From Propionibacteriales bacterium (lineage in GTDB: Bacteria; Actinomycetota; Actinomycetes; Propionibacteriales; Nocardioidaceae): DNA of 64,000 bases. Location of the stretch: assembly GCA_026392415.1 (NCBI GenBank), contig JAPLCC010000049.1, positions 45,174-109,173 on the forward strand, in the 5' to 3' direction. Within the stretch, counting starts at the first letter, position 1. Every line of letters starts with the position of its first letter. A program made the position numbers and the translations under genes. The notes under the pieces are model-generated. The model saw only the letters and a list, made by a program, of their open reading frames with translations. It was not told the DNA's origin and searched no databases. Below, one piece after another: positions 46,608 through 53,676 of the stretch.

Positions 46608-49384
<2,777 letters not shown>

Positions 49385-49892: not shown

Positions 49893-52055
49893 CTACGGAC
49901 TCGTGAGCATGACGAGCTGCTGCGTGGCTCGTGTCATCGCGACATAGCGGTCCACCGCGCCCTCGACACCGACCCCGAAGTTCTCCGGATCCATGAGAAC
50001 GACGAAGTCGAACTCGAGACCCTTGGAGTGCTCGGGCGACAGCGACCGCACGCGCCGGCGACCGTCGTACGAGCCGTCCTCGCGCCCGACACCGATGACA
50101 CACGCGGTCCCGTCGGTGTGCTCCGCGAGCCATCCGTCGAGGATCCGGTCGATGTCGGCGACCGATCCGCGCGCCACCGGGACACCGCTCCGGCGGACCG
50201 AAGTCGGGACGTTGGCGTCGGGCAGAACGGCTCGAATCACCGGCTCGGCCTCGTTCATGACCTCTTCAGGCGTCCGGTAGTTGATGCTCAGGGACGCCAT
50301 CTCGATCCGGTCGAGGCCGACGGTCTCGAGCCGCTCCTGCCAGCTGTCGGTGAAGCCGTGCCTGGCCTGCGCGCGATCCCCGACGATGGTGGAGCTGCGC
50401 GACGGGCAGCGCGCCAGCAGCATCTGCCACTCGGCGGCGGTGAGTTCCTGCGCTTCGTCGACGACCACGTGCGCGAACGGACCGGCAAGGAGGTCGGTGT
50501 CGGCCTGGGGGAGTGCGCCTTCGTCGACGAGGGCGGAGCGGATGCCGTCCTGCCGGAGTTGGGCCATCATCCCGTCCTCGTCGTCGAGCTGGAGCAGGTC
50601 CTCGACGACGTCGTCCATCCGCTTGCGTTCGGCAGCGACAGCTGCCTCGTGTCGACGACGTCGACGCGACTCCTCCGGGTCACCGAGACGCAGGCGGGCG
50701 GCGTCGAGAAGCGGCAGGTCGGACGTCGTCCAGGCCCTGGGGTCGGCGCGCCGCAGGAGCTTGACCTGCTCCGGCTCGAGCCAAGGTGCGCACAGTCGCA
50801 GGTAAGCGGGCACTTCCCACAGGTCACCAACCAGGTCCTCCGGGTCGATGAGCGGCCAGGCCTTGTTGAAGGTGGTGACCAGGTCGCTGTTCCGCAGCAG
50901 CGCGGCGCGCAACATCTCCGGGGTGACGTCGTCATCGCCCTCGAACTTGTCGACCAGGATCGTGAGCAACTCGTCCCACACCTGGTCGCGCGCCTCGTTG
51001 TGCGGCATGCCGGGGTCGGCGGACTCGAACGCCTCGGCCCAGTCGTGCTTGCTGAGCCACAGGTCGGCCCAGGGTGTCTCCACTTCGCTGCTCTCCGCGG
51101 GTGGTTCCTCGTACAGGCGCACGGCCGGCTCGATGGCCTTCACCATCTCGACGCTGGCCTTGAGCCGCGCCACCTCGGGGTCGGACTCCGGCTTTGCAGC
51201 CGCACCGCCGGGGACGAGGTCCGCGAGCGTGCAGGTCTGCACCCCGTCCTCACCGAGGCTCGGCAGCACGTCCGCGACGTAGGCGAGATACGGCTGGTGG
51301 GGGCCGACGAACAGCACTCCGCCGCGACCGTCACCGAGGTGCGGGTCCGCGTAGAGCAGGTACGCCGCCCGGTGCAGCGCCACGACCGTCTTGCCCGTGC
51401 CGGGACCACCGTCGACGACCAGCGCACCGCGCGAGGACGCGCGAATGATGGCGTCCTGGTCGGCCTGGATCGTGCCGAGCACGTCACGCATCTGCGGCGA
51501 CCGACTGCTCCCGAGGCTGGCGATGAACGCAGACTGGTCGTCGAGGGCTGCGTTGTCCTCGAGTCCTTCGGCCGTGAACACCTCGTCCCAGTAGTCACCG
51601 ATCCGGCCGAGGGTCCACCGGTACCGGCGGCGGCTGGCCAGGCCCATCGGGTTCGCATGGGTCGCGCCGAAGAACGGTTCGGCGGCGGGGGAGCGCCAGT
51701 CGACGAGGAGCCGACGACCGTCCTTGTCCGTGAGGCCGAGTCGTCCGACGTACAACGGCTCGCCGTCGTCGGCGCTGACCATCCGGCCCAGGCACAGGTC
51801 CAGGCTGTAGCGACGAAGGGTGCGCAGCCGTGCGGCCAGCCGGTGGATCTCCAGATCCCGGTCCATCGCCGCCTGACCTGTGCCTCCGGGCGCCCTGCGC
51901 TCGTGATCAAGACGCTCCGACAGGTCCGCGATCGAATCCTCGAGGCTGGTCCGGATGGCTGCGAAGTGGCGATCGTCGTCGGCGATCAATGCCGGGGCGG
52001 CCTTGGCTGCCAAGTGGTCGGAAAGTGCGAACGCAGTGGTGATTGCGTCGTTCAA
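49893..52055 (-). CDS. UvrD/Rep-like superfamily 1 helicase, HelD type (possible HelR)
   Basis: FFGATHANPMGLASRRRYRWTLGRIGDYWDEVF, GGPGTGKTVVALHRAAYLLY, VVVDEAQELTAAEWQMLLARCPSRSSTIVGD, LSPEHSKGLEFDFVVL. Confidence 0.9.
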   Translation of the reverse strand: MNDAITTAFALSDHLAAKAAPALIADDDRHFAAIRTSLEDSIADLSERLDHERRAPGGTGQAAMDRDLEIHRLAARLRTLRRYSLDLCLGRMVSADDGEPLYVGRLGLTDKDGRRLLVDWRSPAAEPFFGATHANPMGLASRRRYRWTLGRIGDYWDEVFTAEGLEDNAALDDQSAFIASLGSSRSPQMRDVLGTIQADQDAIIRASSRGALVVDGGPGTGKTVVALHRAAYLLYADPHLGDGRGGVLFVGPHQPYLAYVADVLPSLGEDGVQTCTLADLVPGGAAAKPESDPEVARLKASVEMVKAIEPAVRLYEEPPAESSEVETPWADLWLSKHDWAEAFESADPGMPHNEARDQVWDELLTILVDKFEGDDDVTPEMLRAALLRNSDLVTTFNKAWPLIDPEDLVGDLWEVPAYLRLCAPWLEPEQVKLLRRADPRAWTTSDLPLLDAARLRLGDPEESRRRRRHEAAVAAERKRMDDVVEDLLQLDDEDGMMAQLRQDGIRSALVDEGALPQADTDLLAGPFAHVVVDEAQELTAAEWQMLLARCPSRSSTIVGDRAQARHGFTDSWQERLETVGLDRIEMASLSINYRTPEEVMNEAEPVIRAVLPDANVPTSVRRSGVPVARGSVADIDRILDGWLAEHTDGTACVIGVGREDGSYDGRRRVRSLSPEHSKGLEFDFVVLMDPENFGVGVEGAVDRYVAMTRATQQLVMLTSP

Positions 52056-52112
52056 GTGATCAGCTCCGGGGCAGGTTCGTGGCGTGGAATCGGGGATTCT
52101 GCCCTGACAGGA

Positions 52113-52131
52113 GGGCCTTGCCGCAAGCCCC
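52113..52131 (-). promoter_or_regulatory. Rifamycin-associated element (RAE)-like inverted repeat upstream of the HelD-type helicase
   Basis: Minus strand ggggcttgcggcaaggccc; 58 nt upstream of the ATG; TATAAC -10-like at 52139-52144. Confidence 0.75.
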
Positions 52132-52266
52132 CTCGTGCGTTATACCTTGGTGACGGAGGAACCGTTCAACGGCCGCGCCACGGTCCCGACTTTCTCGATT
52201 CGACCGCGGTTCCGGCGACGGCGTGCCTACGATCGCCCGACCAGCCATCCACCTGATTGACGTCGC

Positions 52267-53676
52267 ATGCGCGTTCACGGCCGAGTCGTGCCACTGCCCG
52301 TGGCCGTGTGTGCGCTGATGTGGCTGTGCCTCGTCGTCGGCCTCCTCACGATCCGCCCCTCCGAATCGACCGGGGCCAGCGCCCCGGCGGGAGTTGTGGC
52401 TGCTGGGGCTGGCGAGGGGAGGGGCGAGGGGAGTGGCGACCGGCCACCGCCGGCACCACCGGCACCGGTGGGTGCCGCGTGGAGCGGGTTCGCCTTCGAC
52501 GCGTGCCGGGCGCCCAGGCAGCGCGTGATGGACCGCTGGCGGACCAGCTCGCCGTTCACCGGTGTGGGCATCTACCTCGGCGGTGTCCATCGGGCGTGCA
52601 GACAGCGGCACCTGACACCGACGTGGGTCTCGCGCCAGTTGGCCACGGGGTGGAAGCTGCTGCCGATCTGGGTCGGCCCCCAGGCCTCCTGCACCGGCTA
52701 CCGGCACAGGATCAGGAGCAGACCCGGTCAGTACGAGCAGTACCCGGCCGCCCGAGCCCGGGCAGGACGCGAGGCGCAGCTGGCCGTCCGGGCAGCTCGG
52801 TCGCTGCGACTGCCTCGGGGCGAGCTGATCTTCTACGACATCGAGCCGTTCGACGTGGGTCGGCGACACTGCCGCGGCTCGTCGCTGGCCTTCCTCGACG
52901 AGTGGACCCGTGAGGTCCATCGCCTCGGCTACCGCTCCGGGGTCTACTCCCACGTCAACTCCGGGATCTCGCTGCTCAGCCGGACCGGGCCGAACTACGC
53001 GCAACCCGACGCCGTCTGGTACGCGTGGATCGACCGCGCGGGCAACATGCCGCGGAAGTACGTGTCGAACGCGACCTTCATGCAGGCCAGCCGGGTCCAC
53101 CAGTACGCCCTGGACACCCGCGTGACGTTCGGCGGGTTCCGGATGGACATCGACTGGAACTTCGTGAGTCTCGGCGCCACCCGACGTGCGACGTCACCCG
53201 CCGGCTGTGCAGAAGCTGCCAGCCGGGTACGCACGAGGTCACTGCGCGCGGGGGCGAGCGGCCGGGCCGTGCGGATCCTCCAGTGCTTGGTACTGCCCGG
53301 CGAACGGCATCCACTGAAGACCTCCGGCCGCTACGACCCGTCGACCGTGCGCGCAGTCAAGTCCTTCCAACGGCGTCGCGGCCTCGAGGTGACCGGCATC
53401 GTCGACCGCGGGACCTGGACCTCCCTGCTCATGCGGGGCGGAACGCCCGTCCTGCGCAAGGGAGATCGCGGCGAGCATGTCCGACGACTCCAACGCAGTC
53501 TCAATGCGGCCGTCGGGCGGCCAGCGGTCAGGGTGGACGGCGCCTACGGCCGCGACACTGCGAAGGCCGTTCGGCGCTACCGCACGCAGCTGGGTCTGGG
53601 TCGCAAGGGCGTCGTCAATGACTCGGTGTGGAAGGCGCTCGCGCGAGGAAGGGTGCTGTCGAACGGTGGAGGCTGA
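52267..53676 (+). CDS. DUF1906 glycoside-hydrolase-like (Rv2525c-like) secreted protein with two peptidoglycan-binding repeats
   Basis: WSGFAFDACRAPRQRVMDRWRTSSPFTGVGIYLGG, LIFYDIEPFD; RAVKSFQRRRGLEVTGIVDRGTW and KAVRRYRTQLGLGRKGVVND. Confidence 0.85.
   Translation: MRVHGRVVPLPVAVCALMWLCLVVGLLTIRPSESTGASAPAGVVAAGAGEGRGEGSGDRPPPAPPAPVGAAWSGFAFDACRAPRQRVMDRWRTSSPFTGVGIYLGGVHRACRQRHLTPTWVSRQLATGWKLLPIWVGPQASCTGYRHRIRSRPGQYEQYPAARARAGREAQLAVRAARSLRLPRGELIFYDIEPFDVGRRHCRGSSLAFLDEWTREVHRLGYRSGVYSHVNSGISLLSRTGPNYAQPDAVWYAWIDRAGNMPRKYVSNATFMQASRVHQYALDTRVTFGGFRMDIDWNFVSLGATRRATSPAGCAEAASRVRTRSLRAGASGRAVRILQCLVLPGERHPLKTSGRYDPSTVRAVKSFQRRRGLEVTGIVDRGTWTSLLMRGGTPVLRKGDRGEHVRRLQRSLNAAVGRPAVRVDGAYGRDTAKAVRRYRTQLGLGRKGVVNDSVWKALARGRVLSNGGG

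Follow-up and report, generated by a model that had tools for sequence, protein, structure and literature searches.

A Nocardioides-like helR gene behind a rifamycin-associated element with two divergent, equally spaced -10 elements

In Actinobacteria the rifamycin-associated element (RAE) has been described as a 19-bp palindrome that overlaps the -35 of the sense promoter and is possibly the site of a regulator. Both M. smegmatis HelD (MSMEG_2174) and M. abscessus HelR (MAB_3189c) are RAE-driven and rifampicin-induced. The genes that rifampicin induces most strongly in M. smegmatis include rox, helD and arr, and deletion of MSMEG_2174 leads to higher susceptibility (PMC6529629); a sense promoter, P2, whose -35 overlaps the RAE has been mapped in this species, and deletion of half of the RAE in M. 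abscessus abolishes induction (PMC10719064). HelR, a Class II HelD-type motor, enters RNA polymerase (RNAP) and opens it, and the acidic tip of its primary-channel loop deforms the rifamycin pocket so that the drug is expelled; mutation of the two acidic loop-tip residues compromised resistance while RNAP binding was retained (PMC10719064). The other closely comparable system is the dual-promoter rifampicin alarm of B. subtilis helD and pps, in which the promoters are convergent and separate with 39 bp between their starts, and the polymerases collide, the stalled one being removed by the sense polymerase (PMC12802891). As of January 2026, RAE-based rifamycin sensing in actinobacteria was called unresolved (PMC12802891).

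The window analyzed here is a stretch of 64,000 nucleotides from a Nocardioides-like genome (4.19 Mb, 60 contigs), and the features discussed below are collected in Table 1. An earlier note on this DNA had placed the RAE correctly but had given the gene downstream of it an ATG start; the start is instead the TTG at 52055, 57 nt from the RAE. Divergent from helR lies a gene (52267-53676, plus strand) for an Rv2525c-like glycoside hydrolase with peptidoglycan-binding domains. Also near helR, a gene (47021-49384, plus strand) whose 787-aa product looks like a UvrA/DrrC-type ABC ATPase with two domains is flanked on both sides by genes of the glyoxalase/bleomycin-resistance type.

Table 1. Positions in the window of helR and of the elements upstream of it
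Feature	Position	Strand	Basis
helR CDS, 720 aa, TTG start	49893..52055	minus	ORF reading and NF041254 motor_HelR match
E493-D494 codons, primary-channel loop tip (DDEDG)	50574..50579	minus	alignment to 6yxu chain H
TTG start codon of helR	52055-52053	minus	sequence
Shine-Dalgarno-like GGAG, 8 nt before TTG	52064..52067	minus	sequence
Sense -10 CAGAAT; predicted transcription start near 52089	52096..52101	minus	column conservation
RAE, 19-bp palindrome, centre 52122	52113..52131	minus	exact 19-mer; conserved beside helR of relatives
Sense -35 TTGCGG in RAE (putative helR promoter)	52121..52126	minus	19-bp spacing to sense -10 in 98/99 sites
Antisense -35 TTGCCG in RAE	52118..52123	plus	palindrome, spacing
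Antisense -10 TACCTT (TAnnnT), 19-bp spacer	52143..52148	plus	conservation at fixed distance
Predicted start of antisense transcription; GG, almost invariant among relatives	52155	plus	column conservation

Searches of the NCBIfam profiles matched the window protein to motor_HelR (NF041254) with 1239 bits over profile positions 1-706 of 706, against a curated cut-off of 750 bits, whereas it reached 379 bits on the mycobacterial HelD family NF041465 (cut-off 1051) and scored far under the cut-off of a second HelR family. The nearest named relative is a Nocardioides sp. Root682 protein with 88-89% identity. A tree of 42 proteins placed the window protein inside the HelR clade (21 HelR rows, support 100/100), while 20 HelD paralogues fell outside it and the paralogue from the same genome (L214) was placed elsewhere, apart from the HelR clade. 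The closest solved structure is that of M. smegmatis HelD (6yxu chain H; also 8q3i), with residues 43-717 collinear between the two proteins, although the mycobacterial protein sits outside the NF041254 clade and the window protein inside it. The primary-channel loop reads DDEDGMMAQ in the window protein and DDEDHLLAQ in M. smegmatis HelD, with the acidic DDED tip and the following Q common to both (E493-D494 and Q499 correspond to E484-D485 and Q490); the exact acidic loop-tip residues differ among HelR proteins. An AlphaFold model of the window protein was too weak (pLDDT 63) to carry any conclusion, though its best PDB matches were M. smegmatis HelD chains. The earlier note had read a HelD-type protein of the HelR type and had proposed tree placement and loop inspection as checks; NCBIfam score, tree, solved-structure homology and loop tip all agree with that identity. 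Compared by way of NF041254 rather than by direct alignment, the window gene and S. venezuelae HelR (SVEN_6029) are alike in family, upstream RAE and Class II HelD layout, and the window gene differs in its TTG start and Nocardioides host. Judged by its sequence, the gene is a helR, an added member of the already known kind of helR with an RAE, and by analogy with tested relatives (PMC10719064, PMC6529629) it would be rifamycin-inducible and its product would protect RNAP.

Recycling of stalled RNAP is another activity of Class II HelD proteins, and a second HelD-like gene of the host genome lies on C40, observations that would suit a general HelD recycling factor with no special role in rifamycin resistance. 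This explanation is very improbable given that the window protein groups with HelR in the tree and exceeds the HelR cut-off, and that an RAE stands at the window copy with none at the paralogue. More generally, HelR over the cut-off was found in 35 of 59 relatives, all 35 of which had an RAE near helR, and no RAE was present within 700 bp of the 20 HelD paralogues. One of the cases that the earlier note had named as speaking against its reading, a protein in a non-HelR clade with an RAE poorly conserved in relatives, did not occur.

The window RAE reads GGGGCTTGCGGCAAGGCCC (52131-52113, minus strand) and matches the RAE known from Actinobacteria at 19 of 19 positions, so that what had been called near-perfect is exact. 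With up to three mismatches allowed, the element and its own reverse reading were the only matches in the window, where 0.01 matches were expected by chance. The exact 19-mer occurs once in the whole genome, other places with at most three mismatches (C7, C46) being degenerate, and the full module, i.e., the RAE with both -10s, likewise occurs once, at the window site. The gene classes found downstream are those of the known RAE: among 70 sites, 66 were assigned to HelR (34), FAD monooxygenases (15), Rph (7), Rgt (5) and Arr (5), with four sites outside the tally. Representatives of rifampin monooxygenase, Rph (a partial sequence) and Arr scored over their NCBIfam cut-offs, and those of Rgt and of a second monooxygenase type scored below them. 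Five of the 24 HelR-less relatives carry the module before an FAD monooxygenase (L204-L207, L209), and the RAE core was found in 120 of the 297 genomes of the class.

While a helR gene with an RAE is already known, the unexpected part is the promoter architecture that flanks the element. Whereas the RAE as described overlaps a sense -35, the sites compared here place it at the centre of a ~53-bp unit whose two -10s diverge and are set off by equal spacers of 19 bp. We compared ~200 other RAE elements. With sites aligned in gene orientation and the RAE centre as position 0, the invariant columns on the gene side were A+22 (1.00), A+24 (0.96), A+25 (0.91) and T+26 (0.99), and on the far side A-26 (0.99), T-22 (0.98) and A-21 (0.98), the latter giving TAnnnT in antisense reading. 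The RAE centre reads as a -35 on both strands, TTGC(G/C)G, with exactly 19 bp to each -10 hexamer, CAnnnT toward the gene and TAnnnT away from it. Within the discovery set (n=99) the antisense -10 was present in 97 sites, the sense -10 in 98 and both in 96, whereas both -10s at any other distance from 8 to 44 were found in 0 of 99 and the antisense TAnnnT at any other distance in at most 2 of 99. Out-of-sample sites from a phylum-wide search, none of which was picked by flank content, had both -10s in 48 of 56 cases and in none at 12 other spacings; the eight misses comprised five RAE-like matches with odd centres and without a promoter, and three sites shifted by 1 bp. When loci were picked by HelR protein only, an RAE lay within 1.5 kb in 67 of 80, and 63 of these 67 had both -10s (0 at other distances), three of the four misses being cut by the locus edge and one being shifted by 1 bp. 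In the pooled non-redundant set, thinned to <75% identity outside the RAE, both -10s were present at 122 of 125 sites.

Additionally, a search for the -10s with CTTGnnnCAAG between them, which does not require the GGG/CCC arms, returned 127 places, spread over 97 of the 198 genomes, whereas the reversed pattern gave 2, a reversed-control rate of ~1-2%. In other classes of the phylum the RAE centre is often altered (e.g., CTTGAAGCAAG, CTTGATTCAAG, CTTGTTTCAAG) with both -10s kept, and the architecture is alike at HelR, rox-like FAD monooxygenase, rph, rgt and arr genes. Beyond the -10s and a G at position 17 (G17), the flanks are not mirror images; an extended operator with full mirror symmetry was rejected, the outward profiles being otherwise uncorrelated (0.11). 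A MerR-type operator sits within a 19-bp spacer, and this possibility was also discarded because the RAE palindrome is centred on the -35 rather than in the spacer. Considering the HelR identity and the two-promoter architecture jointly, and leaving aside the cause of the promoter shift, we regard both as highly probable. In the RAE literature covered, paired divergent -10s were not found described; an earlier notice in the primary HelR and RAE papers is possible.

The earlier note had also pointed to TATAAC as an upstream promoter element. Its position is as given, 7 nt upstream of the RAE (52144-52139), but it overlaps the antisense -10 TACCTT (52143-52148, plus strand), which explains these bases better. 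Reading TATAAC, or the variant TATAGC, as the -10 of a P1 promoter would make the region a pair of tandem sense promoters, with the RAE at the P1 start and overlapping the P2 -35. P1 and P2 have indeed been mapped in M. smegmatis (PMC10719064), and TATA-like bases do lie 7 nt from the RAE. However, taken as a sense hexamer it has C as its last base in 95% of the sites, no -35 is conserved ~17 bp upstream of it, and A-26, T-22 and A-21 coincide exactly with the T, A and T in the antisense TAnnnT; furthermore, the M. smegmatis P1 start lies ~20 bp upstream of the RAE, a misfit to the TATA box. The hexamer was accordingly rejected as a sense -10, lacking T at the sixth position and a -35, and tandem sense promoters are very unlikely. 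Of the further upstream P1 of M. smegmatis (PMC10719064) the aligned columns show no trace.

The antisense side has further conserved features. At 7 nt beyond the antisense -10, ~97% of sites have a G, and the predicted start is GG in 88 of 99. In 80 of 155 sites the antisense start base is itself the first base of an unbroken stem of 6 bp or more, a count to be read with the control in mind, as shifted starts overlap the same hairpin and a 3-nt shift still gives 66 of 155. Pairs 3 to 5 of the hairpin vary with compensation (CG, AT, GC), and the 9 nt that follow it on the antisense strand contain a mean of 4.06 T compared with 1.49 further out, with at least four T in 48 of 80 cases. Where the hairpin is present, the antisense side looks like a promoter whose product would end within ~30 nt. 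A terminator hairpin was rejected as a universal part of the module, since it occurs at only about half of the sites; it is weak at arr sites, and the window and its closest Nocardioides relative are without a clear one. Because of its absence in the window, transcription from the predicted antisense start could continue into the divergent gene (52267-53676).

Folding could instead concern the RAE itself, acting as RNA in a 5' UTR hairpin that controls termination, stability or translation. The palindrome can fold, yet positions -6/+6 are usually purine-purine and unable to pair, there is no Rfam match, and the position of the sense -10 predicts a start downstream of the RAE, which would put the element outside the main mRNA; moreover, induction in mycobacteria is transcriptional (PMC10719064). 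The RNA hairpin was rejected on the non-pairing -6/+6 and the missing Rfam match, and we consider this reading exceedingly unlikely.

In the arrangement that the alignments point to, the RAE would provide one -35 core for two sigma-A-type promoters that overlap, diverge and have the same spacer length of 19 bp: a sense promoter, TTGCGG-N19-CAGAAT, which would make helR mRNA, and an antisense promoter, TTGCCG-N19-TACCTT, which would fire the opposite way. We infer that both promoters are used and are mutually exclusive; both need the RAE, and therefore only one polymerase could occupy the module at once. When rifamycin is absent, the antisense promoter would usually win and helR would remain low, a dominance expected because the antisense -10 is nearer to TAnnnT and its start is a purine, whereas the sense -10 begins with C. 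Sub-inhibitory rifamycin would then move promoter use to the sense side.

It is possible, though we put this forward tentatively, that the divergent promoters with their one palindromic -35 form a self-contained switch governed by the state of the polymerase, the RAE not being primarily a regulator site. The antisense promoter would act as a decoy, often quickly self-terminated, that occupies the site while the polymerase is healthy, and rifamycin-bound polymerase would tip use to the sense promoter. This rifamycin-driven reversal of promoter choice is the weak step of the mechanism. At first sight a rifamycin-stalled antisense polymerase would seemingly block the sense promoter as well, and simple competition alone therefore does not predict induction.

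The B. subtilis alarm offers a partial parallel. As there, one sense and one antisense promoter lie upstream of a rifamycin-protection gene, judged by sequence elements, and the unusual 19-bp spacers, which in B. subtilis occur in the antisense promoters (PMC12802891), are found in both promoters of the RAE module. In contrast to the convergent B. subtilis promoters with room for two polymerases, the RAE promoters diverge, share a -35 and would be mutually exclusive, and the module is therefore not counted as a B. subtilis-type alarm. When the B. subtilis promoters were moved close enough to exclude each other, induction was abolished (PMC12802891), which cautions against a simple transfer of that model.

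Conservation of the GGG/CCC arms far beyond what a -35 needs suggests a further DNA-binding protein at the RAE arms. The RAE may accordingly be mainly the operator of a putative dimeric regulator whose signal is either rifamycin or stalled polymerase, a reading to which we give slightly less than even chances. The divergent -10s would then be real, with output set not by competing polymerases but by a repressor leaving both -35s or by an activator replacing sigma contact. The full GGGnCTTGnnnCAAGnCCC core was present in 66 of the 67 protein-selected RAEs, G17 is conserved on both sides, and such a factor was deemed possible by the authors of PMC10719064 and of PMC12802891. Nevertheless, no candidate regulator was identified in the present analysis, such a factor would need the same wide distribution as a module that stands at five gene classes in several classes of the phylum, and a regulator alone gives no account of the kept antisense -10 and its spacing.

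Several other RAE modules were observed in the course of the comparison. In many Streptomyces and related genomes (L006, L010, L012, L015, L017, L131) an interval of 1.3-1.5 kb separates helR from the upstream RAE, and where these loci were read the start of an Rgt-like glycosyltransferase gene follows the RAE, which suggests an rgt-helR operon. HelR genes are also carried on actinobacterial (mega)plasmids of Streptomyces clavuligerus, Rhodococcus and Streptomyces sp. (L238, L239, L240, plasmid matches H1-H24), and the three plasmid loci read (L238, L239, L240) all had the full RAE module with 19-bp spacers. A genome of another class of the phylum (G549) has four RAE modules (L104-L107), all before Rph-like phosphotransferases. 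At L102 (G346:C1:1048690-1052510) the nearest ORF downstream of the module encodes a 224-aa secreted amidase-like protein, and no rifamycin gene was seen near this module. Modules at L069, L117, L205, L206 and L207 precede FAD monooxygenases that resemble the second type; the one of these tested, L069, scored 327 bits against a rifampin monooxygenase cut-off of 800, which suggests a separate RAE-linked family. Additionally, a complete module near 1917 on the minus strand of L077 (G112:C34:5500-9300) precedes the gene of an ABC transporter ATPase of the DrrA type, with 338 bits above the cut-off of TIGR01188; this is not a known rifamycin gene and is a possible efflux member of the RAE set.

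The RAE module parallels the two-promoter alarm of Bacillus in another geometry. As an exactly spaced divergent promoter pair stands at nearly every RAE, the question of how rifamycin is sensed becomes reducible to a few promoter mutations. The module can serve as a search pattern for further rifamycin-linked genes at the low reversed-control rate given above, and it has already led to the DrrA-type transporter and to FAD monooxygenases that score under the Rox threshold. If the polymerase-state switch proves true, one portable ~53-bp unit would control helR, rox, rph, rgt and arr across Actinomycetota, and no dedicated sensor protein would be needed.
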